The notes under the pieces: generated by a model
Database searches by the model: none
Seen by the model: only the letters and a program-made list of their open reading frames with translations
Told to the model about the DNA's origin: nothing
Position numbers and translations under genes: made by a program
Shown: positions 1,601-19,810 of the stretch, piece by piece
Layout: every line of letters starts with the position of its first letter
How positions within the stretch are numbered: the stretch's first letter is position 1
Origin: a virus
Direction: 5' to 3' (one strand)
Virus record (IMG/VR): IMGVR_UViG_3300042987_001264
Span: 1 to 24,526 of that record
DNA length: 24,526 bases

Positions 1601-1893
1601 TGCCAGGAGCACATAGGCACGGCGATGCCAGATTTTGTGGCGCCACAACAGTCGCGCTCGGTCAATCAACCCTCATAATAAACGATAAAGTGGCGGCCGT
1701 AGAGGGTGATAAAAATACCCATGGCAATGGAGACCTGATTGCGTCATATGGTGACGGTTCTATTATAATCGAGAACCAGAAACTAATTTGTGCCGTCGGT
1801 GATACGGCACAGACAGATAATCAAGGACACCCAAGTCCTTTATCCGATCCATCACAAGCATCTTCTGATGTCTTTCTGTATGAAGGCTCTTGA
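1600..1893 (+). CDS. PAAR-domain spike tip protein (gp5.4-like)
   Basis: The 97 residues match the PAAR family layout: an N-terminal Gly/His-rich start, Ala-rich strand turns, VEGDKNTHGNGDL in the middle, and a late HPSPLSDPS loop. Conserved His and Cys residues could hold the single metal ion at the tip. PAAR proteins cap the gp5 or VgrG needle and form the sharp conical point that touches the outer membrane during sheath contraction. T4 gp5.4 is of similar size. The ATG overlaps the stop codon of the spike gene by one base, so the two are probably translated together as one spike module. These are normally late structural functions but sit here beside early replication genes. Confidence 0.82.
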   Translation: MPGAHRHGDARFCGATTVALGQSTLIINDKVAAVEGDKNTHGNGDLIASYGDGSIIIENQKLICAVGDTAQTDNQGHPSPLSDPSQASSDVFLYEGS

Positions 1894-1922
1894 CAACTAT
1901 ATCAGAATGTGTTATATATAAT
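1890..1922 (+). promoter_or_regulatory. Sigma70-type promoter of hsp20
   Basis: TTGACA at 1890-1895 is followed after 17 nt by TATATA at 1913-1918; an overlapping perfect TATAAT lies at 1917-1922 with a longer 21-nt gap. Transcription would begin near 1925, right at the first hairpin of the hsp20 leader. The -35 box overlaps the end of the PAAR gene. No sigma32-type CCCCAT box is seen. Confidence 0.75.
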
Positions 1923-1923
1923 A

Positions 1924-2004
1924 TAGTTGGGATAAAGGTTTAGCGTACCCAACTACCCCTTGCCTAATGGAAGGGATACAACTCGCTTAATAAGGAGATG
2001 AAAC
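1924..2004 (+). promoter_or_regulatory. ROSE-like RNA thermometer in the hsp20 5' leader (candidate)
   Basis: Three consecutive hairpins fill the leader. Hairpin I pairs TAGTTGGG (1924-1931) with CCCAACTA (1948-1955), 8 bp. Hairpin II pairs CCCTT-CC (1957-1964, G1962 bulged) with GGAAGGG (1969-1975) over a TAAT loop. Hairpin III pairs CTC-CTT (1982-1988, G1985 unpaired) with the Shine-Dalgarno AAGGAG (1992-1997). The TCGCT string facing AAGGA with one unpaired G is the hallmark of ROSE thermometers (UYGCU against the Shine-Dalgarno), which control small heat-shock genes in alpha- and gammaproteobacteria. Melting of hairpin III on warming would free the ribosome site. The assignment is from pairing by eye. 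Confidence 0.7.
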
Positions 2005-2457
2005 ATGAATATTACTGCACTTCAAGACCCATTTGGTTTTTCCAGACTTTCTGTTGGATATGATGAAATCATCAAGAGACTGAGTGAATTTGGTGAAGGG
2101 TTCCCTGGTGGTAAAATTCCAGTATTCCCACCATACAACATTAAGAAAATCTCGGAAAACGAGTACCTCATCGAAATGGCTGTGGCCGGTTTCGGTAAGC
2201 AAGACATTACAGTGACCATGGAAAATGGATCACTGATCATTAAGGGTAATCTCTCACAGACCGACAAGGACACAGAATTCCTTTATAAGGGAATTGCTGA
2301 GAGGGCATTTACCCGAACATTCAACCTTGCTGATACTGTTGAGGTTAAGAATGCTGAACTTCTCAATGGTATGCTGAAGATATTCTTGGAGAGATTTATT
2401 CCAGAAAGTCAGAAGCCAAAGAGCATTGAGATCAATGATGGTTCTAAGAAGAAATAA
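2005..2457 (+). CDS. hsp20: Small heat-shock protein, Hsp20/alpha-crystallin family
   Basis: The 150-residue protein has an N-terminal arm (MNITALQDPFGFSRLSVG) like IbpA-type Hsp20s. The alpha-crystallin domain spans about residues 37-140, with YLIEMAVAGF, ENGSLIIKG, FTRTFNLAD and NGMLKIFLE, and a C-terminal KPKSIEI tail. Such proteins are ATP-independent holdases that keep unfolding proteins soluble. Hsp20 genes are frequent in marine T4-like phages, where they are thought to help scaffold assembly or host stress survival. AAGGAG 8 nt before the ATG is a strong ribosome site but is predicted to be masked by a thermometer hairpin. The gene has its own promoter and terminator, so it is a single-gene unit. 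Confidence 0.95.
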   Translation: MNITALQDPFGFSRLSVGYDEIIKRLSEFGEGFPGGKIPVFPPYNIKKISENEYLIEMAVAGFGKQDITVTMENGSLIIKGNLSQTDKDTEFLYKGIAERAFTRTFNLADTVEVKNAELLNGMLKIFLERFIPESQKPKSIEINDGSKKK

Positions 2458-2466
2458 TTGAGACTG

Positions 2467-2500
2467 ATATATATGCCCTGGGCAACTGGGGCATATATAT
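2467..2500 (+). terminator. Hairpin terminator after hsp20
   Basis: ATATATATGCCC (2467-2478) and GGGCATATATAT (2489-2500) form a perfect 12-bp stem with a 10-nt loop, 10 nt after the hsp20 stop. The 3' side continues with a mixed T/A stretch (TATTATAAT) rather than a pure T-run, so termination may be partial, or the hairpin may mark an mRNA 3' end. It isolates hsp20 from the endolysin gene. Confidence 0.65.
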
Positions 2501-2524
2501 TATTATAATCTAGGGAGTTAGAAT

Positions 2525-4740: not shown

Positions 4741-5342
4741 GCAATTACATTTATGTTGGTGATGATGTACTTGATCCTGCGTTGTGTGATCGGTTCATAG
4801 AAATCTTTACCTCAAACCAAGACCTACATCAGTCGTTTAATGGTAATCCTGGTTTCACTCAGTTGAACTATGGTGAGTCTGTACGCCATAGTAAATTGAT
4901 TCAGGAATATATGCTCAATGCATTTGAGGTCAAAAATCTGCACAACACCATGGTGCAGACGGCCATCCAGGTCTATAAGAGATACATGGAACTCCATAGT
5001 GAATTGGACTACCTACCTAGACCATTTAAAATGGAGGACTTGAGAATCAAGCACTACAGAGGCAATGGTATGGATAGGTTCAATATGCATATCGATACTG
5101 CCTCAGCCAATACCGCCAATAGATACCTGGCAATGTTCTGGTACTTGAATGATGTTGAAGAAGGTGGGCATACTAATTTTCCTGTTCAAAACATGAGCAT
5201 TCAACCAAGGAGGGGGCGTGTTGTAGTCTTTCCTCCTTTTTGGACTCACCCTCATGAAGGACTTCCTGTGACCAAAGGTGAGAAGTATTTAATGAGCACA
5301 TATATGCATTATAGGAACGACAATGATTTCAATAAGAATTGA
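4737..5342 (+). CDS. 2OG-Fe(II) oxygenase (prolyl 4-hydroxylase-like)
   Basis: This 201-residue protein ends in a P4H-type double-stranded beta-helix. The iron ligands are H118 and D120 (HID) and the distal His in FWTHPHEG (H171 or H173), with K183 in GEKYLMSTY binding 2-oxoglutarate. EEGGHTNFP and RRGRVVVFPP are family signatures. These enzymes hydroxylate proline, lysine, sugars or nucleobases using Fe, O2 and 2-oxoglutarate. They are frequent in T4-like phages, mostly with unknown substrate. It sits at the upstream edge of the glycan island; hydroxylating a protein residue that later receives sugar is one possibility. Its last 20 nt overlap the GT2 gene. Confidence 0.9.
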   Translation: MSNYIYVGDDVLDPALCDRFIEIFTSNQDLHQSFNGNPGFTQLNYGESVRHSKLIQEYMLNAFEVKNLHNTMVQTAIQVYKRYMELHSELDYLPRPFKMEDLRIKHYRGNGMDRFNMHIDTASANTANRYLAMFWYLNDVEEGGHTNFPVQNMSIQPRRGRVVVFPPFWTHPHEGLPVTKGEKYLMSTYMHYRNDNDFNKN

Positions 5343-6069
5343 GAAAAGCGTAGCTGTTATTACTCCATCAATCGCATTGCCATATCTTAGGCAATGTATT
5401 GATAGTGTAACAAATCAGACATACAAAAACCTAAAGCATATTATCGTGGCCGACGGCCCCGAATATCTAGGAGCAGTAAAAGGTAAGGCCAAACTAGGTT
5501 TAGACGATTTCTCTACTATTACCTGTACACCAGAAAACACTGGACGCGGCGGATATTATGGCCATAGAATATACGCTGCCTATCCACATCTGATTGAGGC
5601 GGACTATATTGCCTTTCTTGATGAAGACAATTGGTATGAACCGAACCACATTGAGAGTCTGGTTGAAAAGTTGGAAAGAAATAATCATGATTGGGTGTAC
5701 TCGTTGCGAAATGTGTATTCCAATGAACAGTTCCTGGCGGCAGATTGTTGTGAGGCCATTGGTAAGTGGCCGATATACTTCTGGCCACAAGACAATCCAC
5801 AGCACCTAGTCGATACATCCACATATCTTTTCAAAAGAGATTTCTTGATCAATGTATGTCAGCACTGGAATTTTGGATGGGGTGGGGATAGACGTTTCTA
5901 CCAAATAATATCAAAACTGATGGGCCATACCAATTATGGCACAACTGGCCTTCATACTCTGAATTATAGGGTTGATATAAACAAGGCATATGGTGGTGAC
6001 TTCTCATTCTTTGAAAGAGGCAATAAAGTAGTACTTGAGCGTTATGGAGGTAAATATCCATGGAACTAA
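5323..6069 (+). CDS. Family 2 glycosyltransferase
   Basis: The 248-residue product has a GT-A fold. VAVITPSIALPYLRQCIDS starts the nucleotide-binding half, QTYKNLKHIIVADG follows, and YIAFLDEDNWY at about 95-105 holds the metal-binding acidic motif. It transfers a sugar from a nucleotide donor to an unknown acceptor in the cytoplasm; no membrane span is seen. AGGAAC precedes the ATG, and the gene starts inside the end of the oxygenase gene. It overlaps the FkbM methyltransferase by 10 nt, so they are probably translated in sequence. Donor and acceptor cannot be read from sequence. Confidence 0.85.
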   Translation: MISIRIEKSVAVITPSIALPYLRQCIDSVTNQTYKNLKHIIVADGPEYLGAVKGKAKLGLDDFSTITCTPENTGRGGYYGHRIYAAYPHLIEADYIAFLDEDNWYEPNHIESLVEKLERNNHDWVYSLRNVYSNEQFLAADCCEAIGKWPIYFWPQDNPQHLVDTSTYLFKRDFLINVCQHWNFGWGGDRRFYQIISKLMGHTNYGTTGLHTLNYRVDINKAYGGDFSFFERGNKVVLERYGGKYPWN

Positions 6070-6767
6070 ATGATCTTCCTCATCAAATGAGAAAATATAA
6101 TAACATTGAGCAGGAAAGGTTCATTGGGGCCTGTATGCTTATGTGTAAGGAAAGCACTTCTCAGAATTTTCAGGATGTATGGGCCCTATTTGAAACTGGG
6201 TTCAAAAAGGAAGGTTATTTTGTCGAATTTGGTGCTTGTGATGGTATCGTGGGCAGCACAACACTATTGCTGGAGAACAAGTATAACTGGAATGGAATAC
6301 TAGCAGAGCCCAATCCGATATGGCATGAAAAGTTGGTAAATCGCAAGGCCTCTGTTTGTCGCAAGTGTGTCTGGACAGAGACAGGCAAGGAATTGACTTT
6401 TCATAATACTGCCGATCCTATGCTTGGCACACTTGATCAATACACAGATAGTGATGAACATGCTATGGCCAGGAAGAACAGTCAGACATTCACGGTTGAG
6501 ACCATAACTCTATGTGATATGCTTTCTTACTACTTGGTGCCTAAGGTTATAGACTTTGTATCGATTGACACAGAGGGCAGCGAGTATGACATACTTAGGG
6601 CATACTTTGATGATCCTCGTAAGGAAAAGTATGGAGTTAACCTGTTTTGTGTTGAGCATAACTATACAGAGAACAGAGAGAAAATCCATAGTCTGATGGT
6701 TGAAAATGGATACATGAGAGTGTTTGCCGACTTCACCAGGTGGGATGATTTTTATAAGAAGGTGTGA
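6060..6767 (+). CDS. FkbM-family methyltransferase
   Basis: This is a 235-residue class I SAM methyltransferase of the FkbM type. The SAM-binding motif is YFVEFGACDG (53-62), followed by LLENKYNWNGILAEPNP, whose acidic residue should hold the SAM ribose, and by DFVSIDTEGSEYDIL (165-179), the strongest FkbM signature. Family members O-methylate sugars or polyketides; in phage and bacterial glycan loci they cap glycans. GGAGGT is placed 9 nt before the ATG. The gene lies inside the glycan island and starts within the GT2 gene. The acceptor is unknown. Confidence 0.9.
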   Translation: MELNDLPHQMRKYNNIEQERFIGACMLMCKESTSQNFQDVWALFETGFKKEGYFVEFGACDGIVGSTTLLLENKYNWNGILAEPNPIWHEKLVNRKASVCRKCVWTETGKELTFHNTADPMLGTLDQYTDSDEHAMARKNSQTFTVETITLCDMLSYYLVPKVIDFVSIDTEGSEYDILRAYFDDPRKEKYGVNLFCVEHNYTENREKIHSLMVENGYMRVFADFTRWDDFYKKV

Positions 6768-6768
6768 T

Positions 6769-6870
6769 ATGGAAGTATTATTTGTGTTGCTTTTGTATGT
6801 GGCATGCTTTATAATAGGATATGCAATAGGTTGGGCACTAACTGAATGGTATGATAGGAATTGGAGATGA
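6769..6870 (+). CDS. 33-aa single-span membrane microprotein
   Basis: A short frame starts 1 nt after the FkbM stop and encodes MEVLFVLLLYVACFIIGYAI and then a GWALTEWYDRNWR tail. It has one hydrophobic span of about 20 residues and an amphipathic Trp/Arg tail, which resembles real phage microproteins more than chance translation. AGAAGGTGTG upstream could act as a ribosome site. Its stop overlaps the start of the next gene (ATGA). Function unknown. It could be an error of over-calling, but the tight spacing on both sides supports it. Confidence 0.6.
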   Translation: MEVLFVLLLYVACFIIGYAIGWALTEWYDRNWR

Positions 6871-7091
6871 TTTTAGTAGGCGCAAGACCCAGAGACAAAG
6901 ACAAGTGTGGATGCCGCAAATGCTGGCGAGCTCGCCGTGATGAGGAAGTAAATATGACAATTGCGGAGAGCCTCAACCATCCATTTATTGTATGCGAACA
7001 TTGTGGTAATAAGAGATGTCCGCACGCCGCCGACCATGAATTGGAATGTACCGGCAGTAATGAACCTGGACAACCTGGGAGTGATTATTAA
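6867..7091 (+). CDS. Cys/His-rich putative zinc-binding phage protein
   Basis: This 74-residue protein has two Cys clusters: CGCRKC near residue 14 and CEHCGNKRCPHAADHELEC in the second half, followed by TGSNEPGQPGS. The latter stretch is a motif I recall from many small tailed-phage proteins, also without assigned function. The spacing suggests one or two zinc sites. GGAATTGG stands before the ATG at 6867; an in-frame TTG at 6861 is less likely. It overlaps neighbouring microprotein genes at both ends. Such proteins may bind host RNA polymerase or nucleic acid, but nothing here proves it. Confidence 0.8.
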   Translation: MILVGARPRDKDKCGCRKCWRARRDEEVNMTIAESLNHPFIVCEHCGNKRCPHAADHELECTGSNEPGQPGSDY

Positions 7092-7219
7092 TGACCGAAA
7101 ACTTCATATACATACTTCCAATTATTATCATTGTGTCGGCCGCCATTGGTTGGCGCCTAGGTAAATTTTTGGCAGATAGAGTTTATAAACCCCGCGTTCG
7201 GAGGAACAAAAATGTATAA
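7091..7219 (+). CDS. 42-aa membrane microprotein
   Basis: The ATG at 7091 shares its A with the stop codon of the zinc protein. The product has a short polar start (MTENF), one membrane span (IYILPIIIIVSAAIGWRLG) and a basic tail (RVYKPRVRRNKNV), giving a likely N-out/C-in topology by the positive-inside rule. It overlaps the next glycosyltransferase gene by 8 nt, and the GGAGGAAC ribosome site of that gene lies within it. Function unknown. The composition and the overlaps argue that it is a translated gene. Confidence 0.6.
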   Translation: MTENFIYILPIIIIVSAAIGWRLGKFLADRVYKPRVRRNKNV

Positions 7220-8144
7220 AGACTTGATTATTGGTGCAATCTCAAACTATACTTGGAATGATATCAAGTGTTGGCTAAATTCAATCACGATGTCTGGGTT
7301 TGATGGTGATGTGGTTCTTGTTGGTACAAATATCAATAAAGACACCATTGATAAACTTACGGAACGCGGTGTTCGACTTGAACTATATGGAAAGAAGACC
7401 GAGGATGGTGGTGTGGTATCCACTGATAGTTCTATGCCGCCTCATGTTGAGAGATTTTTCTATATCTGGAATTACCTGAATAAGAATACAGGATATAGAT
7501 ATGTTATAACAACAGATACCCGAGATGTCATTTTCCAAAAGAACCCGGTAGAATATTTGGCCGCCGGTTTGACAATTCGCGAGATAATCTTTAGTTCTGA
7601 GGGCATTCGTTACGCCAACGAGCCATGGGGCTCTAAGAACTACCATCAGACATTTGGACCATATTTCTTTGATCAGATCAAGTATAGATTGATTTACAAT
7701 GTCGGTGTTATAGCAGGCCTACAACCAATTATGACCTCCTTGATGGCCCAGATTTTCCATATGTCAATGAACCGACCAATAAAGATTTGTGACCAGGCAG
7801 TATTCAATATGCTAATCACTCATTATCCATATAATATGGGGCGCCACTCTGAAAACGATGAGGGCTGGGCAATTCAGTTGGGCACAACAAAAGAAGCGGT
7901 CAAATCAGGATCGGGTGATATTGGACAGATATTCTCCAAGAATCCTATGCAATATGATATGATCTATGAGGACAAGCAACCGATAATTGATCCTCATGGA
8001 CAGGTGTTGACTGCTGATGGTGGAACATTATATACTATTGTTCACCAGTATGATAGAATACCAGAACTAAACGACAAAATACTGAAAATGTATGGAGATG
8101 ATAATGTTACTAAATCCAGAGTTACTTTCCATCACCCAGTCTAA
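7212..8144 (+). CDS. Putative glycosyltransferase, GT-A fold with TDTRD motif
   Basis: The 310-residue protein starts LIIGAISNYTWNDIKCWLNS, typical of the Rossmann-like start of GT-A enzymes. It carries YVITTDTRDVIFQKNP at about 97-112, the DxD-type metal and donor-phosphate motif found in GT8/GT32/GT77-like families. A later CDQAVFNML motif resembles the D-Q-near-acceptor signature of those families. I cannot assign a CAZy family. GGAGGAAC lies 6 nt before the ATG. The gene belongs to the glycan island and its 3' end carries a promoter and the start of the following methyltransferase. No membrane anchor is seen. Confidence 0.75.
   Translation: MYKDLIIGAISNYTWNDIKCWLNSITMSGFDGDVVLVGTNINKDTIDKLTERGVRLELYGKKTEDGGVVSTDSSMPPHVERFFYIWNYLNKNTGYRYVITTDTRDVIFQKNPVEYLAAGLTIREIIFSSEGIRYANEPWGSKNYHQTFGPYFFDQIKYRLIYNVGVIAGLQPIMTSLMAQIFHMSMNRPIKICDQAVFNMLITHYPYNMGRHSENDEGWAIQLGTTKEAVKSGSGDIGQIFSKNPMQYDMIYEDKQPIIDPHGQVLTADGGTLYTIVHQYDRIPELNDKILKMYGDDNVTKSRVTFHHPV
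8007..8036 (+). promoter_or_regulatory. Intragenic sigma70-type promoter before methyltransferase
   Basis: TTGACT (8007-8012), an 18-nt spacer and TATACT (8031-8036) lie within the 3' end of the upstream glycosyltransferase gene, about 68 nt before the methyltransferase start at 8104. Each box matches 5 of 6 consensus bases. Confidence 0.5.
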
Positions 8145-8649
8145 ACAGATGGGTATGTGGCCTAATGGCAATACAGTCGCGGATCAAATGTATCCGTATG
8201 TTAAACGCATGAAGGAACCAACCGTCAAAATTCTTGATATTGGCGATCCAAAGGGCGAGAATGTCTATAGATTCCTAGAATTGGATCAAAAGGGCAAAAT
8301 TGAATCGATTGACGTTATACAAAAGTTTCTAGCTAAATCAATGAGCGCAGAACTTGATAATTTGCGCGGAGAGAATTTGTGGTCTTGTCCATCGAAAGAA
8401 AAGGTGCATTTAAATACTGAGAAAAAAGTTGGCCATTATGATTTGGTTTGTGTTAATTCTGAATCAGGCCTTGACACAACATTGGATATGTACTATAATT
8501 CTCTGAAATCTGGCGGTATCTTTTGTGGTAACAATCATGGTCATCATCCAGTGAAAGAGGCCTTGGTGGCCTTTAGAAAGAAGAATAAGATAGGCACACC
8601 TATACTAACCGCTTTTGATGTATGGTTCTGGTATAAAAGGGAACAATAA
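8104..8649 (+). CDS. Putative SAM-dependent methyltransferase
   Basis: This 181-residue protein is a compact class I methyltransferase-like domain. VKILDIGDPKGENVYRFLE is a motif I with an acidic and Gly-rich turn, though the usual GxGxG is weak. YDLVCVNSES is motif IV, and LKSGGIFCGNNH is the late strand. The final HHPVKEALVAF and FDVWFWYK resemble small sugar or peptide methyltransferases. Start ATG 8104 has GGAG 6 nt upstream; ATGs at 8092 and 8098 are also in frame. It overlaps the upstream gene by 41 nt and the epimerase gene by 1 nt. The substrate is unknown. Confidence 0.7.
   Translation: MLLNPELLSITQSKQMGMWPNGNTVADQMYPYVKRMKEPTVKILDIGDPKGENVYRFLELDQKGKIESIDVIQKFLAKSMSAELDNLRGENLWSCPSKEKVHLNTEKKVGHYDLVCVNSESGLDTTLDMYYNSLKSGGIFCGNNHGHHPVKEALVAFRKKNKIGTPILTAFDVWFWYKREQ
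8471..8499 (+). promoter_or_regulatory. Perfect-consensus sigma70 promoter inside the methyltransferase gene
   Basis: TTGACA (8471-8476), exactly 17 nt, then TATAAT (8494-8499): a full 12-of-12 match. It lies within coding sequence, about 150 nt upstream of the GDP-mannose 3,5-epimerase-like gene. Transcription would start near 8506 and read the epimerase and GT10 genes. Confidence 0.65.
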
Positions 8650-9689
8650 TGGAAAAACAGAAGACTGCCCTTGTCCTGGGCGCGGGTGGATTTATTGGCC
8701 ACCACATGGTGAATAGACTGAAGATGGAAGGATACTGGGTCAGAGGTGTTGACCTGAAACGGCCTGAGTTTGAGAGAACTAAGGCCGATCATTTCATTGT
8801 GGCCGACCTACGCATGAAGAACCATGTTGAACAGATTATTTCCTATGCCGGCAGCAACAGAAATCCATATCAGACATGGAATAGAAAGTTTGATTTGCCG
8901 TTTGATGAAATTTATCAATTCGCCGCGGACATGGGTGGTGCTGGGTTTGTTTTCACTGGTGAGAATGATGCTAATATCATGCACAACTCAGCCACAATAA
9001 ATCTGAATCTTTTGGACTCATTGGCCGGGTATAATGAGATACACAAAACAAAGTCGCCAAGGATATTCTATTCCTCATCTGCCTGTGTATATCCTAAAGA
9101 AACTCAGGACTCCGATACACCTAATTGTGCTGAACACACAGCCTACCCTGCAAATCCTGACAGTGAATATGGTTGGGAGAAACTGTTCTCGGAAAGATTG
9201 TATCAGGCATATAAGAAGAACTATGGCATTCCGGTGTGTATTGGACGATTCCATAACATCTTTGGGCCTTTAGGCACATGGCAGGGCGGCCGTGAGAAGT
9301 CGCCAGCTGCAATCTGTCGCAAGGTAATACAGGCAACAGATTCCATTGAGATATGGGGCAATGGTTCTCAGAAACGATCATATCTCTATATTGATGATTG
9401 TATTGATGCTGTAAGATTGTTGATGAACCACAATGGTGCTATTATGGGCCCTGTGAATATCGGCTCGGAAGAAATGGTAAGCATTACTCAGTTGGTTGAT
9501 ATTGCCATGAGCATTGAAGGTAAAACACTTACCAAGGTATATGTGCCTGGTCCTGTTGGTGTCCATGCCAGAACATCAGATAATTTCCTGATTGATGTTC
9601 TGATTAATTGGAGTCCGAAGTATAGTTTGGAAGAGGGTATGAGAAGGTTGTACCCATGGATTAAAGGACAAATACATGCTGCCTCTTAA
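8649..9689 (+). CDS. gme: GDP-mannose 3,5-epimerase-like SDR
   Basis: The 346-residue protein matches GDP-mannose 3,5-epimerase along its whole length. Signatures are GAGGFIG (11-17, NAD), AADMGGAGF (92-100), SSSACVYP (142-149, catalytic C146), YGWEK (174-178, Tyr/Lys pair), GRFHNIFGPLGTWQGGREK (199-217, catalytic K217), RSYLYIDDC and VNIGSEEMVSI. The known enzyme turns GDP-D-mannose into GDP-L-galactose (and GDP-L-gulose), best known from plant vitamin C synthesis and some bacterial glycan loci. All catalytic residues are present. The next gene is a GT10 transferase that could use the product. The ATG overlaps the preceding stop. It may get its own promoter at 8471. Confidence 0.9.
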   Translation: MEKQKTALVLGAGGFIGHHMVNRLKMEGYWVRGVDLKRPEFERTKADHFIVADLRMKNHVEQIISYAGSNRNPYQTWNRKFDLPFDEIYQFAADMGGAGFVFTGENDANIMHNSATINLNLLDSLAGYNEIHKTKSPRIFYSSSACVYPKETQDSDTPNCAEHTAYPANPDSEYGWEKLFSERLYQAYKKNYGIPVCIGRFHNIFGPLGTWQGGREKSPAAICRKVIQATDSIEIWGNGSQKRSYLYIDDCIDAVRLLMNHNGAIMGPVNIGSEEMVSITQLVDIAMSIEGKTLTKVYVPGPVGVHARTSDNFLIDVLINWSPKYSLEEGMRRLYPWIKGQIHAAS

Positions 9690-10548
9690 ACTAGGATTCA
9701 CTGATACTTTTGGTGCCATTGAAGAATTCTTTACTGATATTCTGTCCAAGAGGTATACCATCACCAGAGATGATGCGAATCCAGACTATTTGATATTTGG
9801 TGATAGAAACTTTGGTAACAATAACGTAAATTATGACCCCAAGCGTGTTACTAAGATATTCTATACTGGTGAGAACGCACGTCCATGGGACTATTCATGC
9901 CACTTTTCTATATCATTTGATCATCATGAACTAGACGGAAAAAATTACAGATTGCCTCTGTATGTTATATATGATTGGGATAGCAATAGAAGAAATCCGC
10001 CTGTTCGCAACAGTAAATCAGTGCGTATGGCTAATGAGCTGACTATTTTCAATAAGGAATTTTGCTCATTTGTGGTAAAGAATCCAAATTGTGAGATGCG
10101 CAATACTTGGTTTCAAATACTTAATTCTTATAGGCCGGTCTCGTCAGGTGGTCCATTATTCAATAATATTGGTGGGGTTCTGCCTGGTGGTGATCAGGCT
10201 GTTTATACCAAGCAGGCATTTCTGAATAAGCACAAATTTAACTTGTGTTTTGAGAATGCATCCTACCCAGGATATGCAACGGAGAAGTTATATGAGGCAT
10301 TGTGTGCAAAGACTGTGCCGATATACTGGGGCAGTCCGACAATAGAACTGGACTTCAATCCAAAAGCATTTTTGAATAGGCATAACTATAATACAGATAA
10401 AGAGTTCCTATCAGCAATTATAGAATTGGATAAGGATCACAATAAATATTTGGATATATACTTCCAGCCAATGTTCGCGGGACCAAACAAATTCATGGAC
10501 ACAGATAGACTTTTGGCCTGGTTTGCTGAGAAGGTTTATAGGGGGTAG
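9676..10548 (+). CDS. GT10 (alpha-1,3-fucosyltransferase-like) glycosyltransferase
   Basis: The 290-residue protein has the GT10 hallmark FENASYPGYATEKLYEAL (192-209) followed by AKTVPIYWGSP (211-221), the GDP-sugar site of alpha-1,3/4-fucosyltransferases. YTGEN (63-67) and the HFSISFD strand match the bacterial enzymes. By family it moves a GDP-linked L-fucose-type sugar onto an acceptor by inversion. Because it starts inside the epimerase gene (14-nt overlap), its donor may be GDP-L-galactose, which is 6-hydroxy-L-fucose; that is inference. No membrane anchor or C-terminal heptad repeats are visible, unlike Helicobacter enzymes. Confidence 0.92.
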   Translation: MLPLKLGFTDTFGAIEEFFTDILSKRYTITRDDANPDYLIFGDRNFGNNNVNYDPKRVTKIFYTGENARPWDYSCHFSISFDHHELDGKNYRLPLYVIYDWDSNRRNPPVRNSKSVRMANELTIFNKEFCSFVVKNPNCEMRNTWFQILNSYRPVSSGGPLFNNIGGVLPGGDQAVYTKQAFLNKHKFNLCFENASYPGYATEKLYEALCAKTVPIYWGSPTIELDFNPKAFLNRHNYNTDKEFLSAIIELDKDHNKYLDIYFQPMFAGPNKFMDTDRLLAWFAEKVYRG

Positions 10549-10549
10549 T

Positions 10550-11302
10550 ATGACTAATCTTATAATATGTCCTGTTGGAATACCAATGTCATATGACAAA
10601 AGGTATGATGCTGGAAATCATTGGAGAAAGACTAATTGCGCAAAAAGAGAGTATGAAACTCTTGTGGTAGTCTATAATGATTTTGTTCCTGAAGAAAATT
10701 CATATGATCATATCCTTCATATGAAGGGCCACAAATGGCAGATCATCAGAGAAATACCTAAGGTATTCGATATAGAGAAATATGATTACATTGGTTGTGT
10801 GGATGATGATCTAATAACGGATATCCATTCATTCAACATTGGTCTGAACTTGGCCCATAATTTCGATTTCAAAATATGGCAACTCTCTATGATTGAGGGA
10901 TCGGGCATCATTTACCAATGTCTAATGCAGAATCCCAAATGGGCATTCACTGAGACCAATTTTATCGAGATGGGCAGTCCATTTTTCCGTAAGGACAAGT
11001 TTAAGGAGATTATTGAATTCTTCAACCAATTGGACTTCACAATAGGATGGGGAATCGATAAAGTGTTTTGTGATGTATTGAACTGTACAGCCAACGTTGT
11101 TCATTGTGCATCAATCTATCATCCACCGAACACAATCAAACCATCATATTATGACCAGGCAGAGGCCATGGCCGAGATGACACATATGATTGATAACGTG
11201 TATCCTAAAATCATGTTTGAGAAGTATGGTAAGCATCAATGGGCATTCTGTGATGTTCAACAAACACTAAAGGTGTGGGAATTTTCAGACGCGAGGAAAT
11301 AA
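10550..11302 (+). CDS. DUF707-like putative glycosyltransferase
   Basis: The 250-residue protein has a GT-A-like layout: LIICPVG start, KYDYIGCVDDDLITD (78-91) with an acidic DDD metal motif, and a late FIEMGSPFFRKDKF...GWGIDKVF (138-173) block. That block resembles the DUF707 family seen in plants and bacteria. A terminal VHCASIYHPP includes conserved His residues. Members are annotated as putative glycosyl- or lysine-ketoglutarate-related proteins; in this setting a sugar transferase is most likely. The ATG at 10550 follows a GGGGG stretch and sits 1 nt after the GT10 stop. Its final base is the first base of the dehydratase ATG. Confidence 0.72.
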   Translation: MTNLIICPVGIPMSYDKRYDAGNHWRKTNCAKREYETLVVVYNDFVPEENSYDHILHMKGHKWQIIREIPKVFDIEKYDYIGCVDDDLITDIHSFNIGLNLAHNFDFKIWQLSMIEGSGIIYQCLMQNPKWAFTETNFIEMGSPFFRKDKFKEIIEFFNQLDFTIGWGIDKVFCDVLNCTANVVHCASIYHPPNTIKPSYYDQAEAMAEMTHMIDNVYPKIMFEKYGKHQWAFCDVQQTLKVWEFSDARK

Positions 11303-12345
11303 TGGCAAAACGTATACTAATTACAGGTGGTGCTGGATTCATAGGGCACCATATAATTGATCATTTCCTAGCCACTACAGATTGGGAAATTATCTCTCTT
11401 GATAGACTTGACTACTCTGGCAACCTAAATCGTTTGGACTATGTGGTTAGTGCGTACCCCCAACATGTACGGAAAAGAGTTAAGATTGTCTGGCATGATC
11501 TAAAGGCAGAGATTGCGGAGATCAATCAAAACTTCCTTGGGGATGTGAATATTATACTTCATTTGGCTGCTAGCAGTCATGTGGATAGATCAATCACTCA
11601 TCCGATGGAATTTGTTCAGGACAATACAATTGGTACCATAAATGTCCTTAACTATGCGCGTAAACTGAAGAATCTTGAGAGGATCATTTATTTCTCAACA
11701 GATGAAATATTTGGTGATGCTCCACCTGGCGTATTGTATGGGGAATATGATAGGTATAACTCAACCAATCCTTATTCTGCCTCCAAGGCGGCCGCCGAAG
11801 AATTTTGTGTGGCCTATGAGAACACATATAAACTTCCAATCTTTGTGACACACACAATGAATGTGATGGGTGAGCGCCAGCATCCTGAGAAGTTCATTCC
11901 CATGTGTATACGAAAAATACGCGACTCAGAGAAGATTTTCATTCACTCTGATTCCACTCGCACACAAGCAGGAAGCAGGTTCTATATTCATGCCAAGGAT
12001 GTGGCAGAAGCAATGTATTTCCTATTACACCTGAATGCCGATCAGCATCAGATATTGAATGACCATATGAAATCTCTGGGTGTAAGATGCCCCAAATTCA
12101 ATGTGGTTGGTAAGGAAGAGATTGACAATCTAACCATGGTAAAGATTCTGGCCGCTGCGCAGAACAAAGACCCAATTTATGAGATGGTCGACTTCCACAC
12201 ATCAAGACCTGGCCATGATCTTAGATACTCTCTGGATGGTGCTTTTATGAGGAAACTTGGTTGGCAACCTAGAGTGGCACTAAAGGAAAGACTTGAACGA
12301 GTGACAGAATGGTCACTGAAACATCCGGAGTGGATTGAACTATGA
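11302..12345 (+). CDS. Sugar-nucleotide 4,6-dehydratase-like SDR (RmlB family)
   Basis: This 347-residue extended SDR has TGGAGFIG (8-15) for NAD, ASSHVDRSI (90-98), FSTDEIFGD (131-139) with the Thr-Asp-Glu triad of 4,6-dehydratases, YSASK (158-162) as catalytic Tyr/Lys, and NVMGERQHPEKFIP (187-200). This is the pattern of dTDP-glucose 4,6-dehydratase, which makes the 4-keto-6-deoxy sugar nucleotide from which branched and methylated deoxysugars are built. The nucleotide (dTDP, GDP or UDP) is not certain. GAGGAA precedes the ATG. The C-methyltransferase two genes downstream is a natural next step. The stop overlaps the next start. Confidence 0.88.
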   Translation: MAKRILITGGAGFIGHHIIDHFLATTDWEIISLDRLDYSGNLNRLDYVVSAYPQHVRKRVKIVWHDLKAEIAEINQNFLGDVNIILHLAASSHVDRSITHPMEFVQDNTIGTINVLNYARKLKNLERIIYFSTDEIFGDAPPGVLYGEYDRYNSTNPYSASKAAAEEFCVAYENTYKLPIFVTHTMNVMGERQHPEKFIPMCIRKIRDSEKIFIHSDSTRTQAGSRFYIHAKDVAEAMYFLLHLNADQHQILNDHMKSLGVRCPKFNVVGKEEIDNLTMVKILAAAQNKDPIYEMVDFHTSRPGHDLRYSLDGAFMRKLGWQPRVALKERLERVTEWSLKHPEWIEL

Positions 12346-13007
12346 ACACAAAATATTGCTGGGACATGTCAACCAAACCATCAGATAAATGGTTGCCTTA
12401 TTTTGAAGTCTATGATAGACACTTGAAAGACCTATATCCAAAACCAAAACACCTTGTTGAGGTAGGTGTACAGGGTGGTGGATCACTGGAAATGTGGTCA
12501 AACATATATGCTGGATCATGCAAAATAACCGGCATCGATATTGATCCTAAATGTGCTGAGTTAAGTTATCACTCAGATATGGTTAGTGTGATAATAGGTG
12601 ATCAGGGTGCTGATGATTTTTGGAATGAAATTTTGCCCAAATTAGGTAAAATTGATATTTTCATTGATGATGGTGGCCATTTTATGGATCAGCAAATACT
12701 TACCTTTGAGAAAGTATTCCCTAAACTGTCAGTTGGTGGTGTTTACATTTGTGAGGATACCCATACATCATATATGGAATACAATGGTGGTGGATTGTAC
12801 AGAAAGACATCCTTCATTGAATATTCAAAGCGCCTGATTGATACCTTACATATCGGATGGTTTGAGGAATTGGATAGTGAACAGGAAAGATTATCCAAAA
12901 TAACAAAAGACTTGACATCTATACATTTTTACGATAGTATGGTGGTGTTTGAAAAATTCGGCAAAAAGGATATGAAGCGTGGACAACCAAAAAGTTTCGA
13001 GTCTTGA
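12342..13007 (+). CDS. Class I SAM-dependent methyltransferase (CmcI/MycE-like)
   Basis: The 221-residue protein has KHLVEVGVQGGGSLEMW (36-52, SAM motif I), TGIDIDPK (63-70) and IDIFIDDGGHFMDQQ (104-118). The DDGGH motif is typical of metal-dependent sugar O-methyltransferases such as MycE and the CmcI hydroxylase-associated family. GGVYICEDTHTSY is the later strand. It probably O-methylates a sugar made by the neighbouring enzymes. The start overlaps the dehydratase stop (ATGA), and its last 29 nt overlap the C-methyltransferase gene. The exact acceptor position is unknown. Confidence 0.85.
   Translation: MNTKYCWDMSTKPSDKWLPYFEVYDRHLKDLYPKPKHLVEVGVQGGGSLEMWSNIYAGSCKITGIDIDPKCAELSYHSDMVSVIIGDQGADDFWNEILPKLGKIDIFIDDGGHFMDQQILTFEKVFPKLSVGGVYICEDTHTSYMEYNGGGLYRKTSFIEYSKRLIDTLHIGWFEELDSEQERLSKITKDLTSIHFYDSMVVFEKFGKKDMKRGQPKSFES
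12912..12940 (+). promoter_or_regulatory. Possible intragenic promoter before C-methyltransferase
   Basis: TTGACA (12912-12917), a 17-nt spacer and TAGTAT (12935-12940, 4 of 6) lie in the 3' end of the O-methyltransferase gene, 38 nt before the GTG start at 12979. Weaker than the other promoters reported here. Confidence 0.3.
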
Positions 13008-14211
13008 TAGGTGCTTGGCCTGTGATAGTATCAAACTAACACAGGTTCTTGACCTGGGTGAGCAACCACTGGCCAATTCCTTTAAGAAAAATGTTCGCGA
13101 CAAGGAAGAGAAATATCCTCTAGCCATTAATAAGTGCGATTATTGCTTCCACGTTCAGTTGTCACATATTGTCGATCCGGAAATAATCTATAAGGATTAT
13201 GCATACGTAAGCGGTACATCTGATACCATGCGCAAACATTTTGAATGGTTTGCCCGATGGTCTGTGGAATACTACAAACTTACCAATAGAAATGAACATT
13301 TTCGCGTTCTGGACATTGGTTGTAATGATGGATCACAATTGGATGCCTATAAGGCGATGGACCCAAAGATCATTACATTTGGTGTTGATCCGGCCGAGAA
13401 TCTATTTCCTGTATCATCAGAAAAGGGCCACAAAATCACATGCTCTATGTTTGATGGTAATTTTGTTAGGGGACTACAATCATACGAAATTCTTGTGGCC
13501 CAGAATGTGTTTGCCCATCAGGCAAATCCTTTGGCATTTTTACATTGTGCTAAACAAAGCATGCACTACAACAGCCTTCTGTTCATCCAGACATCACAGG
13601 CTGATATGATACGAAATGCCGAATATGATACAATTTACCATGAGCATATTTCATTCTATAACATCAATTCAATGAATAGATTGTGTAATCGTGCGGGTAT
13701 GAAGTTGGTTGATGTTATCAAGTGTCCATTGCATGGTAACAGTTACATTTTCGTTATAAGAACTGAGTTGGGACGTCCCAATCATATTGATAATCTGATT
13801 GATATGGAAAAGGACCTGCTTAGGCATGAAACGTATCTTGAGTATGCGGATAGATGCCGCGCTCATATGGAGAATATACACTACATTATTGAGAAGTACA
13901 GAAAGAACTATTATCCGATTATTGGTTATGGTGCGGCCGCCAAAGGTAATACTCTGATCAATTCGGCTAATTTGTACCTTGATTGCATAATTGATGACAA
14001 TCCTCTAAAGCAGGGTAAATTCACACCAGGTGCAAATATACCAGTGTTCAACTCAGGTATGCTAGAATATCATGAATCGCCGGTATTGTTTGTGCCTCTT
14101 GCCTGGAATTTCTTTGATGAAATCAAGAGCAAGATTAAGGATAAAAGGCCATCGCAGCTGGGTAAAGACCTTTTCCTAAGAGTGAACCCCAAGATGGAAG
14201 TTATACAATGA
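12979..14211 (+). CDS. Sugar C-methyltransferase (TylC3/NovU type)
   Basis: The 410-residue protein has the three-part layout of sugar C-3/C-5 methyltransferases. The N-terminal zinc domain has C12-x2-C15 and C53-x2-C56 with LDLGEQPLANSF between. The SAM domain has VLDIGCNDGSQLDAY (110-124). The C-terminal Rossmann-like domain has IIGYGAAAKGNTLIN (about 313-327) and IDDNPLKQGKFTPG. Known members add a methyl to a 4-keto-6-deoxy sugar nucleotide to make branched sugars. The 4,6-dehydratase upstream would supply the substrate. Start is GTG at 12979, with AAGGAT at 12967-12972; there is no ATG in frame before the zinc motif. Confidence 0.92.
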   Translation: MDNQKVSSLDRCLACDSIKLTQVLDLGEQPLANSFKKNVRDKEEKYPLAINKCDYCFHVQLSHIVDPEIIYKDYAYVSGTSDTMRKHFEWFARWSVEYYKLTNRNEHFRVLDIGCNDGSQLDAYKAMDPKIITFGVDPAENLFPVSSEKGHKITCSMFDGNFVRGLQSYEILVAQNVFAHQANPLAFLHCAKQSMHYNSLLFIQTSQADMIRNAEYDTIYHEHISFYNINSMNRLCNRAGMKLVDVIKCPLHGNSYIFVIRTELGRPNHIDNLIDMEKDLLRHETYLEYADRCRAHMENIHYIIEKYRKNYYPIIGYGAAAKGNTLINSANLYLDCIIDDNPLKQGKFTPGANIPVFNSGMLEYHESPVLFVPLAWNFFDEIKSKIKDKRPSQLGKDLFLRVNPKMEVIQ

Positions 14212-16341: not shown

Positions 16342-18890
16342 CCTCTTTCTATACCAATGTTCAGGTGCATGGGTCTAAGATACTATACAGAGGTGTAGAA
16401 AACGGAAGAAAAGTAAAAGTAAAAGAAGACTATCATCCTTCTCTGTACTTGAATAGTAAAGACCCAACAAAGTTCACGACAGTCACCGGAAATTATGTTT
16501 CTGAGATCAAACCAGGAACAATCCGTGATTGTCGTGAATTTATTGCCACTTATGATAATGTCTCCAACTTTCCAATCTATGGAATGCAGAGGTACGAGTA
16601 TTGCTATATCACGGAGAAATTTCCTGGTGATATTCAATGGTCTAAGAACCTAATCGGCATAGGTAACATTGACATCGAGGTTGACTCGGAGAATGGATTC
16701 CCCGATCCTGCTATTGCCGCAGAGACTATCACTGCCATCACATTTTCGCTCAATGAGAAAATCTATGCCTTTGGTCTGAAGGATTACACTCCTTCCGATC
16801 CGAACGTGAAATATTTCAAGTGTGCGGATGAAATTGATCTGCTCAAGAAATTCATTGAGTTATGGTCATATGACTACCCGGATATATTGACTGGGTGGAA
16901 TATCAAATTTTTCGATATTCCATATCTTTTCAATCGAATTTCCAAATTGTTAGGCTCTGCCTGGGCCAAGAGACTTTCTCCTTGGAATGTACTAAGGGAA
17001 CGAGAGGTCTTTATCATGGGCAGGCCACAGAAGACCTACCTTCCCCTGGGTATTGCAATCATTGATTACCTTGAGGCATATAAGAAGTTTGCCAACAAAG
17101 GCAACTCGCGTGATAGTTATAAACTGGATTCAATATGCGAAATTGAAATCAAGGAAAAGAAGTTGTCATATGGTGAATATGGTAACCTGCATACCCTCTA
17201 TAGAGAAAACTTCCCATTGTTCATGGACTATAACCTCCGTGACCGTTATCTGGTTGCCAAATTGGATGATAAATTGAAGTTGATTGACCTTATTCTGACT
17301 CTGGCCTATGATAACAAGTGCAACATTGAGGATGTGTTTGCTCAAGTAAGAATGTGGGATGTTATCATTTACAACCACCTTCATGAAAATAATGTTGTAT
17401 TGCCTCCAACAAGCAGGCAATCAAAGGATGCATCATATGTTGGCGCATACGTCAAGGATCCAAAACTTGGCATGCATGAATGGGTTGCATCATTTGACCT
17501 CAATTCGCTCTACCCCCATTTGATCATCCAGTATAACATATCACCTGATACTATCATCGCACCCGACAACTATACGGATGGTATGAGGAGAATACTGGCA
17601 CAAAATATCAATGTCGATACTCTATTGGCTAAGAATGTGAATACTTCAGGTCTTGGTGCTGAGAAGGTGACACTGACACCTAATGGTCAATTGTTCACGA
17701 TTACTAGGCAGGGGTTTCTACCCAAGCTTATGGAGAAGATGTATAATGACCGCGTAGTGTATAAGGAAAAGCAGATTGATGCTGATAAGAGAAAACAGAC
17801 TGCCAAAACCGAAGAGGAAAAGAGAGAACTGGAGAACTTGTCATCCAGATATAAGAATCTACAGTTGGCCAAGAAGGTAAGTCTCAACTCTGCCTATGGT
17901 GCTCTTGGTAACCAGTTTTTCCGTTTCTATGACATTCATCAAGCAACGGCAATCACTACGGCCGGTCAGTTGTCTATTAGGTGGATTGAAGACAAAATCA
18001 ATATTTACCTAAATAGAATACTGGAAACAAAGGACGTTGACTATGTCATTGCATCAGATACGGACTCGATTTACTTGTCGCTTGATAAGTTGGTCTCTAG
18101 AACTATTATGGAAGCGATTCCTAATGCTCCAACAGAAAAGGTCATCGACTTCATGGATGCTATCTGTAAGGATAAAATCCAACCTGTTATTGACAAATCT
18201 TATAATGAGCTTAGCCGATATATTAACGCCTACGCCCAAAAAATGATCATGAAGCGAGAGTCCCTTGCCAACAGGGGAATCTGGACTGCAAAGAAGAGGT
18301 ATATTCTAAACGTTTATGATAATGAGGGCGTTCGATATGCTAAGCCAGATATCAAGGTTATGGGCCTTGAGATGGTCAAGTCATCAACGCCATCGGCCTG
18401 CCGTAAGAAAATGGAAGAGGCCATTGAACTCATAATCAATTCATCAAATGAAACTCTTATAGAATTTATCGATAAGTTCCGTGAGGAGTTTAAGACTCTC
18501 CATGAGTCCGAGATTGCATTTCCAAGAAGTGTCAATGGTATTGATGAATATTATGATGCCTCAACACAATCATATAAGAAAGCAACTCCTATACATGTTA
18601 GGGGCGCCATTGTCTATAATACAGCACTACGTAAGGCAAAACTGACCAATAAGTATCCCCTGATCAATAATGGAGAGAAAATCAAGTTCATATATCTAGT
18701 GGAACCTAATTTGTTCCGTAGTAATATTATTGCCTTTCATAATGACATGCCGAAAGAGCTTGACATTCGTAAATATATCGATTATAATACACAGTATGAT
18801 AAATCATTTCTAGAGCCAATAAAAATCATTTTGGATGTTATTGGTTGGAACGTTGAGGAAATAAATAGTCTAGAAAACTTATTTGTATAG
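16338..18890 (+). CDS. 43: Family B DNA polymerase gp43
   Basis: The 850-residue protein is a T4-type replicative polymerase. The proofreading exonuclease has NIDIEVD (Exo I, D112/E114), TGWNIKFFDIPYL (185-197, Exo II) and DYNLRDRYLVAKL (Exo III region). The polymerase has FDLNSLYPHLI (motif A, D387), KKVSLNSAYGALGN (512-525, motif B) and ASDTDSIYL (motif C, D574 and D576). The C-terminus should bind the gp45 clamp. The length is close to cyanophage gp43 and slightly shorter than T4 (898). No intein or split is present. The final base of its TAG stop is the first base of a tRNA gene, and a perfect promoter (18760-18788) is embedded in its last codons. Confidence 0.97.
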   Translation: MTSFYTNVQVHGSKILYRGVENGRKVKVKEDYHPSLYLNSKDPTKFTTVTGNYVSEIKPGTIRDCREFIATYDNVSNFPIYGMQRYEYCYITEKFPGDIQWSKNLIGIGNIDIEVDSENGFPDPAIAAETITAITFSLNEKIYAFGLKDYTPSDPNVKYFKCADEIDLLKKFIELWSYDYPDILTGWNIKFFDIPYLFNRISKLLGSAWAKRLSPWNVLREREVFIMGRPQKTYLPLGIAIIDYLEAYKKFANKGNSRDSYKLDSICEIEIKEKKLSYGEYGNLHTLYRENFPLFMDYNLRDRYLVAKLDDKLKLIDLILTLAYDNKCNIEDVFAQVRMWDVIIYNHLHENNVVLPPTSRQSKDASYVGAYVKDPKLGMHEWVASFDLNSLYPHLIIQYNISPDTIIAPDNYTDGMRRILAQNINVDTLLAKNVNTSGLGAEKVTLTPNGQLFTITRQGFLPKLMEKMYNDRVVYKEKQIDADKRKQTAKTEEEKRELENLSSRYKNLQLAKKVSLNSAYGALGNQFFRFYDIHQATAITTAGQLSIRWIEDKINIYLNRILETKDVDYVIASDTDSIYLSLDKLVSRTIMEAIPNAPTEKVIDFMDAICKDKIQPVIDKSYNELSRYINAYAQKMIMKRESLANRGIWTAKKRYILNVYDNEGVRYAKPDIKVMGLEMVKSSTPSACRKKMEEAIELIINSSNETLIEFIDKFREEFKTLHESEIAFPRSVNGIDEYYDASTQSYKKATPIHVRGAIVYNTALRKAKLTNKYPLINNGEKIKFIYLVEPNLFRSNIIAFHNDMPKELDIRKYIDYNTQYDKSFLEPIKIILDVIGWNVEEINSLENLFV
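18760..18788 (+). promoter_or_regulatory. Perfect-consensus sigma70 promoter in the 3' end of gene 43
   Basis: TTGACA (18760-18765), exactly 17 nt, then TATAAT (18783-18788). The start point would be near 18795, giving a transcript that begins about 95 nt before the tRNA and continues into the structured RNA, Bax inhibitor-1 and uvsX. Confidence 0.7.
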
Positions 18891-18966
18891 GACATATAGC
18901 TCAATTGGTTAGAGCCGACCGCTCATAACGGCCTGGTTCCAGGTTCAAGTCCTGGTGTGTCCACCA
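18890..18966 (+). tRNA. tRNA with CAU anticodon (Met or lysidine-type Ile2)
   Basis: A full cloverleaf can be drawn. The acceptor GGACATA pairs with TGTGTCC (one G-U). The D arm is GCTC/GAGC with GG in the loop. The anticodon arm is GACCG-CTCATAA-CGGCC (one A-C mismatch). The T arm is CCAGG-TTCAAGT-CCTGG, followed by discriminator A and encoded CCA. The CAU anticodon may be elongator Met, or Ile2 whose C34 becomes lysidine to read AUA. ATA codons are common in this window and the variable loop resembles Ile2, so Ile2 is favoured but not proven. Its first G is also the last base of the gene 43 stop codon. Confidence 0.93.
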
Positions 18967-19108: not shown

Positions 19109-19810
19109 ATGCGTAATCTATCAAGAACGTATGAGGATAAAGCAGTATATGATGCCGGCCTAGCATCACATTTTCAAACCATATTCACATGGATGGGCGC
19201 TGCATTGATGATAAGCGGTCTTACTGCTTTTGGTATTTACAGCTCACCAGAATTATCCAAATTGATTTGGACTACTAACCTGGCTTGGGTCGTTATATTT
19301 CTTCCATTGGTTATGTCATTCGGATGGATTTTCTTGATAAGTGCCGGACTCAGTCCGGTATTTCTACAACTCTATATGCTGTTATTTGCTGTCGCCATGG
19401 GTGCTTCAATGAGTGTGGTATTCATGGTATTCAAAATGGGCAGCATTGTACAAGTCTTTTTCATTACATCGGCAATGTTCACTGTGACCGCGGCCTGGGG
19501 TTATACGACCAAAAAGGACCTTAGTTCATGGGGCAACATACTTTTGATGGGCCTTATTGGTATCATCATTGCGGCTATCGTCAACATCTTTCTGGCAAGT
19601 AGTGCTTTGGCCTTTGCCATTAGTGTGCTAGGTGTGATAATTTTCACAGGCCTGACCGCCTATGATATGCAGAACCTAAAGGATGAATATTATCAGATTG
19701 GTGAACATGAGCGAAAGACATTTGCTCTAATGGGTGCACTGAGTCTATACATGAACTTTGTGAATCTGTTCTTTCATCTTCTGCAAGCACTAGGTGAGAA
19801 AAAGGAGTAA
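19109..19810 (+). CDS. Bax inhibitor-1 family membrane protein
   Basis: This 233-residue protein has about seven membrane spans. It starts [21 protein letters not shown], typical of bacterial BI-1 (YbhL/YccA/YetJ) proteins. It carries SMSVVFMVF in the middle, [20 protein letters not shown], and the strong signature [13 protein letters not shown] near residue 180, followed by a last hydrophobic pair of spans. Known members form pH-sensitive calcium leaks, and YccA restrains the FtsH protease. A phage copy may alter host membrane protein turnover or calcium, or delay death. AAGGAG precedes the ATG, after a structured leader. It ends 2 nt before the uvsX start. Confidence 0.93.

Follow-up and report, generated by a model that had tools for sequence, protein, structure and literature searches.

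A two-hairpin, ROSE-like leader precedes hsp20 in diverse phages and probably controls its translation

In a 24,526-nucleotide stretch of viral DNA (hereafter the window, meaning the whole stretch analysed), we found that hsp20 is preceded by a leader in which two hairpins form a core element, the second of them masking the Shine-Dalgarno (SD) sequence. The same structure is conserved and covaries among relatives, is linked to hsp20, is present in named phages and in bacteria, and is served by different promoters in the two. We consider it probable that this leader is a ROSE-like translational control element, opened by heat and driven by a phage promoter.

The window carries T4-like replication genes (RecA/UvsX-type, B-family polymerase, DnaB-like helicase and dUTPase), and the features around hsp20 are collected in Table 1. 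An earlier note on this DNA had claimed that an hsp20 gene lies behind a sigma70 promoter and three successive hairpins, the last pairing AAGGAG with CTCGCTT (1982-1988) and leaving G1985 unpaired. The promoter could be read directly, the hairpin coordinates were confirmed in the sequence, the SD pairing was seen in both the sequence and the fold, and the Pfam match identified the gene as hsp20. The promoter was identified by eye; our promoter scanner did not list it because it requires T as the final base of the -10 box, and the same stretch also reads TATATATA, a sequence similar to the T4-type late box. When the leader was folded across temperatures, as had been proposed, RNAfold returned all three hairpins throughout the range of 15 to 42 C. 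The single-sequence fold only modestly beat shuffled sequences (z = -2.15; 9/200 shuffles equally good), so chance could not be dismissed from the window alone; that doubt was removed by the relatives, which show covariation, a covariance-model match and enrichment of the core. This core comprises hairpins 2 and 3 (window about 1957-2001).

Table 1. Coordinates of features in the hsp20 region of the window and of a phasin-like open reading frame at other loci
Feature	Position	Strand	Description
sigma70-type promoter	1890-1918	+	TTGACA 1890-1895, 17-nt spacer, TATATA 1913-1918; read from sequence
Hairpin 1, optional part	1924-1955	+	stem 1924-1931/1948-1955, TAGTTGGG ... CCCAACTA; conserved loop GGATAAGGT..TTGCGTACC
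Hairpin 2, core element	1957-1975	+	CCCTT-G(bulge)-CC-TAAT-GG-AAGGG; 1957-1961 and CC 1963-1964 pair with GG 1969-1970 and 1971-1975, G1962 bulged; strong covariation
Hairpin 3, SD-masking, ROSE-type	1979-2000	+	CTC 1982-1984, G1985 bulged, CTT 1986-1988, loop AAT, AAGGAG 1992-1997; core 1982-1997, outer pairs weak
hsp20 Shine-Dalgarno AAGGAG	1992-1997	+	read from sequence
hsp20	2005-2457	+	class-A (IbpA-like) small heat-shock protein, 150 aa; start codon ATG 2005; Pfam HSP20 1.3e-17, tree, conserved residues
Strong hairpin 3' of hsp20	2465-2502	+	fold z -5.37
Phasin-like ORF	L262:741-968	-	
Phasin-like ORF	L339:6175-6393	+	
Phasin-like ORF	L223, about 1248		
Phasin-like ORF	L232, about 1239		

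The strong hairpin 3' of hsp20 is a possible end of a single-gene transcript, termination being only inferred since a long T run is absent downstream. Elsewhere in the window, we observed a gene for a Bax1-I (Bax inhibitor 1 family) membrane protein at 19109-19810 (Pfam 1.1e-50), here in a phage, and a tRNA-Met gene at 18890-18966 whose start overlaps the stop codon of the DNA polymerase gene by one base, the final one. A long series of ORFs at 5323-14211 resembles, as judged by eye, glycosyltransferases, methyltransferases and sugar-nucleotide epimerases, and reads like a surface-sugar cluster within the phage genome.

To place the leader among relatives, we used the window Hsp20 protein as a query (80 IMG/VR loci, 48-64% identity), together with cyanophage and Pelagibacter-phage Hsp20 queries (160 further loci); almost all of these loci share the leader. 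With one rule for all, a UYGC...GGAG core preceded the start codon in 138/145 distinct phage hsp20 leaders, versus 12/287 other GGAG-bearing ORFs on the same contigs. These leaders had not been selected on the core, and the count upheld the proposal that UCGCU opposite AAGGA is a ROSE core. The core was found in 46/47 leaders of the window type, 40/41 of the cyanophage type, 33/33 of the HTVC115P type and 19/24 others. True or partial exceptions were L143, L220, L224, L227, L249, L047 and L048; L223 and L232 were exceptions in appearance only, because there the element precedes the small first gene of an operon. Within 655 kb around the first 80 loci, CUYGCU...GGAG...AUG gave one chance match outside hsp20 leaders, four other rows being the same hsp20 leaders with an alternative start. 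When IMG/VR was scanned with a single exact form of the pattern, at least 120 stretches were found; among the matches listed, 103 precede Hsp20, about 8 more precede an Hsp20 truncated by the contig end, and in a few the element stands upstream of an hsp20 operon's first gene. The identical pattern in cellular genomes had Hsp20 next in 3/119 stretches.

A few loci carried the element beside other genes. A small phasin-like ORF (about 71-79 aa, no significant Pfam match) lies behind the two-hairpin element and close before hsp20 at four loci (Table 1), and we read the pair as a two-gene operon with one shared element. At L318:1879-2108 the core occurs in tandem, the first copy before a rubredoxin-like 48-aa ORF (51 bits, the top of that model search) and the second before hsp20. 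On the viral contig L251, an AhpC-type peroxiredoxin gene (1907-2516, minus strand) has ACTCGCTTAACAAGGAG upstream (R1, 22 bits) and is possibly another gene controlled by a ROSE-like hairpin.

The earlier note had pointed to covarying changes among related leaders as a check, and on comparison hairpin 2 covaried strongly and hairpin 3 in part. Fixed anchors were used to parse 82 nonredundant leaders; among these, outer pairs 1-5 of hairpin 2 form in 81, 81, 81, 79 and 72 leaders (shuffled means 72, 42, 34, 36 and 34), and pairs 2-5 show each of the four Watson-Crick types. A first MAFFT alignment (A1) misaligned hairpin 2 and was replaced by this anchor-based count and by A2, a structure-blind alignment of trimmed sequences. 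Across A2, 94.4% of hairpin 2 cells were paired and the covariation score was 0.748, as compared with 0.221 after shuffling and no more than 0.197 with slid partners; shuffle tests are inflated by sequence relatedness, which the slid control preserves. A2 is out of register between loop lengths on the SD side of hairpin 3, and the counts for that hairpin were made separately. Its core pairs are invariant and uninformative because the SD fixes them, which limits covariation to neighbouring pairs. The flanking pair, which lies just outside the core and is A-U, U-A or C-G depending on the phage, formed in 50/105 leaders (shuffled mean 26, maximum 38) and the second inner pair in 83/105 (mean 62, maximum 72).

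We then built a covariance model from 51 relatives, leaving the window out. It recovered the element in the window (38.4 bits, E=4.8e-9), with no other match in 24.5 kb. At minimum the SD-masking core, if not the whole element, lies before hsp20 in cyanophages P-RSM1, P-SSM2 and S-PM2, Pelagibacter phages HTVC008M and HTVC115P, Methylophilales phage Melnitz-1, phage C48C1, marine virus AG-345-P14 and jumbo phage PA5oct. Whole-genome searches with the model placed the best match at hsp20 in P-RSM1, P-SSM2, S-PM2, HTVC008M, Melnitz-1 and PA5oct. P-SSM2 and PA5oct belonged to the training set; the other four did not, and in each of those the site directly upstream of hsp20 was the single genome-wide match at E<=0.1. 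The HTVC115P hsp20 leader, in which the hairpin 2 sequence differs, scored weakly and was not the top match, and the C48C1 genome gave no covariance-model match at E<=0.1. A separate observation in P-SSM2 was a manA RNA (L089:524-721, 181.6 bits), intergenic before a gene annotated purL and upstream of hsp20.

A scan with the Rfam ROSE models, which the earlier note had put forward as a check, was negative at gathering cut-offs for both the window and the sampled phage leaders. ROSE_3 (RF02523) was nevertheless the top Rfam family in the window leader (15.0 bits against a 43-bit cut-off) and the only match in all of Rfam for the P-RSM1 leader (21.8 bits, E 0.005, also below the cut-off). In the bacterial leader L506, ROSE_3 scored 18.3 bits and ROSE (RF00435) 19.7 bits, the latter under its 45-bit gathering cut-off; RF00435 had no match in the window. 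The sub-threshold ROSE_3 matches aligned the entire model every time (window, P-RSM1, L506), and other sub-threshold families (mir-200, RAGATH-34 and similar) were dismissed as chance. An above-threshold match in L084 ('Pseudomonas phage Y7'), where ROSE_3 matches a Pseudomonas ibpA-type element, was excluded as phage evidence, since this unverified record resembles a Pseudomonas chromosome with its own ibpA element. A fourU thermometer was rejected as well, the strand facing AAGGAG being CUCGCUU and not four consecutive U. By the published definition of a ROSE-like element, the SD lies in the last of two to four hairpins in the leader of a small heat-shock gene, opposite a U(U/C)GCU anti-SD with a predicted bulged G, the conserved secondary structure is supported by covariation, and translation increases with temperature as the last hairpin melts. 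The window leader satisfies each structural part (UCGCU at 1983-1987, G1985 unpaired in the fold), the evidence on melting being predicted opening energies only, and the ROSE reading was thereby supported on every architectural feature open to testing, namely gene, anti-SD, bulged G, SD hairpin and covariation. We call the element a phage variant of ROSE-type control; since it falls short of the curated cut-offs, we do not count it among the Rfam ROSE members.

Hairpin 1 was ruled out as a member of the core element, being absent from most relatives. It is present in only about a dozen (among them L002, L013-L015, L024, L027, L029, L030, L045 and L048), and an exact-pattern scan of viral contigs found it in two contigs only, both known hsp20 leaders. 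Its internal loop GGATAAGGT..TTGCGTACC is conserved, its stem varies with apparent compensation, and it was seen only before hsp20 elements; it could be a separate RNA motif. In some relatives (L012, L003, L008, L010, L032 and L044) the place of hairpin 1, just upstream of hairpin 2, is taken by a tRNA gene (tRNA-Met at L012:4853-4927) or by a merely tRNA-like sequence (L010, 26.3 bits, just below the Rfam cut-off), which suggests that processing of a tRNA precursor may release the leader. The leaders of L019 and L021 are near-identical in hairpin 3 and the coding start and quite different in promoter and hairpin 2, as if leaders had been exchanged by recombination.

To look for cellular counterparts, we used the phage-built model to search 289 genomes from the class to which L409 (titled Alphaproteobacteria) belongs and 185 genomes from that of L473. 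Strong bacterial matches lay before hsp20 in L506-L509, L511, L513 and L531, as did a match in L501, and most such cellular matches share the two-hairpin design; many weaker cellular matches were not before hsp20. By inspection, the cellular leaders L506 (CTTGAA...CCCATATAA), L511 and L531 have sigma32-like boxes, whereas 0/105 nonredundant phage hsp20 leaders do. Phage-type promoters were instead far more frequent in these 105 leaders than in shuffled sequences: TTGACA-N15..19-TATA in 26/105 (0.3 in shuffled) and the T4-type late box TATAAATA in 33/105 (1.9 in shuffled). The claim that the phage gene is controlled without host sigma32 was thus supported, and the thermometer appears to have been retained without the heat-shock promoter. 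In some two dozen leaders the late-like box ends 1-6 nt upstream of hairpin 2, so that the mRNA would start at the thermometer. Published phylogeny groups cyanophage small heat-shock proteins (sHSPs) with bacterial class A, apart from those of their cyanobacterial hosts (PMC3827213). In our Hsp20 tree, phage and cell rows are intermixed with weak backbone support; it therefore neither shows nor excludes a single capture and leaves the direction and number of captures unsettled. Most likely, phages took hsp20 and its ROSE leader together from proteobacteria and then swapped the promoter, although the direction is inferred.

The closest known relatives are the short ROSE-like Pseudomonas ibpA thermometers (Krajewski et al. 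2013, PMC3669281), with which the phage element shares two hairpins in a leader of roughly 60 nt, the SD in the second, a U(U/C)GCU anti-SD with an unpaired G, a first-hairpin GCC...GG and a small heat-shock gene. The phage element differs in falling below the Rfam cut-off, in having a phage-type promoter in place of sigma32, in its shorter hairpins and in the sometimes present extra 5' hairpin or upstream tRNA. Rhizobial ROSE elements (RF00435) share the anti-SD logic and the gene class, but they are longer, with two to four hairpins, and no phage leader reached their Rfam threshold. The Pseudomonas leader of equal design is a proven thermometer, in which the second hairpin suffices and its melting was shown by probing (PMC3669281).

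We therefore asked how the SD would be expected to open. Its predicted opening energy in the window fell from 6.5 to 5.3, 3.6 and 2.9 kcal/mol at 15, 25, 37 and 42 C; the same calculation on the P. aeruginosa-type ROSE_3 element of L084 gave 5.7 at 25 C and 3.9 at 42 C. Predicted energies of the phage leaders likewise dropped with warming, and at all temperatures from 15 to 42 C they were higher than in 153 control genes (p 4e-10 to 7e-7; medians at 25 C of 4.7 versus 2.9 kcal/mol). Deleting the bulged G in silico raised the energy by 3.5-4.4 kcal/mol, and in published work on ROSE-like elements its deletion plus a stabilising change abolishes heat induction. In the mechanism we propose, AAGGAG would be held at low temperature by pairing with U(U/C)GCU in the last hairpin, and the ribosome-binding site would stay hidden. 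On warming, this hairpin would open, since the unpaired G and the short helix keep the pairing weak, and Hsp20 would be translated from pre-existing mRNA. Transcription would come from a phage-type early or late promoter rather than through a heat-shock sigma factor, which would leave the RNA as the sole heat-responsive step. On the strength of the opening energies and the published bulged-G work, heat induction is the likeliest function, yet it is inferred, as is melting in the physiological range; no temperature experiment was made on the phage element.

A role in heat alone is less obvious because many carriers inhabit water of fairly steady temperature. The leader may instead serve mainly as the site at which phage Hsp20 represses its own translation, with misfolded protein titrating Hsp20 away, a possibility to which we give appreciable weight, though short of even; it does not exclude a thermometer, because both functions can coexist. 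Such a leader would sense folding load in infection (massive capsid synthesis, for example) rather than heat. E. coli IbpA represses its own translation through its 5' UTR, for which Arg93 is needed, and Arg97/Lys98 and the aromatic residue at position 34 also matter (PMC10474464). We transferred residue numbers through the GIAER and PPYN motifs. The Arg93 equivalent, which sits in GIAER in the window Hsp20, is R in 168/170 phage Hsp20s, the Arg97 equivalent is R in 165/170, and the position-34 equivalent is aromatic (Y/F/W) in 170/170; the window protein has F, R and R at positions 34, 93 and 97. The matching relied on what we take to be the E. coli IbpA sequence. Hairpin 2, moreover, makes no contact with the SD and yet preserves its bulged-G/CC/GG motif, as a recognition site would be expected to do. 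The same three residues are, however, conserved across alpha- and gammaproteobacterial IbpA and could have been inherited for other reasons, the K98-equivalent position is not conserved in the phage proteins, and there are no binding data for any phage Hsp20. With the repression arginine kept in 168/170 proteins, aggregation sensing remains a live second function, and in water of steady temperature folding-load sensing in virion assembly may outweigh heat. We tentatively suggest, without holding it to be the likelier case, that many phages, including T4-like cyanophages, carry a complete, bacterium-derived chaperone feedback module, in which a class-A Hsp20 would bind and silence its own ROSE-like leader until heat, or unfolded protein in virion assembly, relieves the block, with phage promoters uncoupling the module from host sigma32.

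The nearest-neighbour model predicted gradual rather than switch-like opening, which would also suit a static brake, a hairpin that senses nothing and merely holds Hsp20 at a low level whatever the temperature, or postpones its translation. We regard this as unlikely, as a brake needs no bulged G, no UYGCU and no two-hairpin design shared across diverse phages; simpler hairpins suffice. That the hairpins arose near the SD by chance, or reflect mere sequence conservation in close relatives, finds support only in the weak single-sequence fold and is already refuted by the covariation, with all four Watson-Crick pair types and 94% pairing in hairpin 2, and by the presence of the element across unlike phage groups and cells.

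Returning to the ROSE-like thermometer as the preferred reading, the phage RNA thermometers described in the literature found are lambda cIII and two fourU cases, SPbeta blyA and a sigma70 gene from a Caudoviricetes record (PMC4166951, PMC11182007). They share temperature-dependent SD access in phage mRNA, but are single cases from other RNA classes and genes, none of them ROSE or hsp20. Cyanophage sHSPs, which belong to the identical protein family, have been inferred to derive by lateral transfer from bacterial class-A sHSPs, and the S-ShM2 protein is a chaperone in vitro (PMC3827213, PMC5028025); word searches of these two papers turned up neither a thermometer nor a control region upstream of the gene. 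Our search of full-text literature found no phage ROSE element or hsp20 thermometer and no description of phage hsp20 control; most subscription papers lie outside its coverage, and absence is not proof. The earlier note's remark that it knew of no described phage ROSE element was borne out to that extent, the literature found describing other phage thermometer classes only, and ROSE-like control in an hsp20 leader appears not to have been previously described in phages.

In T4-like cyanophages, a group abundant in the sea, hsp20 belongs to the core genes. Together, our results provide a covariance model that can be used to annotate the element in phage genomes, and a testable rule: phage Hsp20 output would follow temperature or folding load at the level of translation. 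Phage RNA thermometers, so far a handful of isolated examples, would become a widespread class, and the element would show a regulatory RNA travelling between bacteria and phages together with its gene. Such control would also bear on the effect of warming water on infection.
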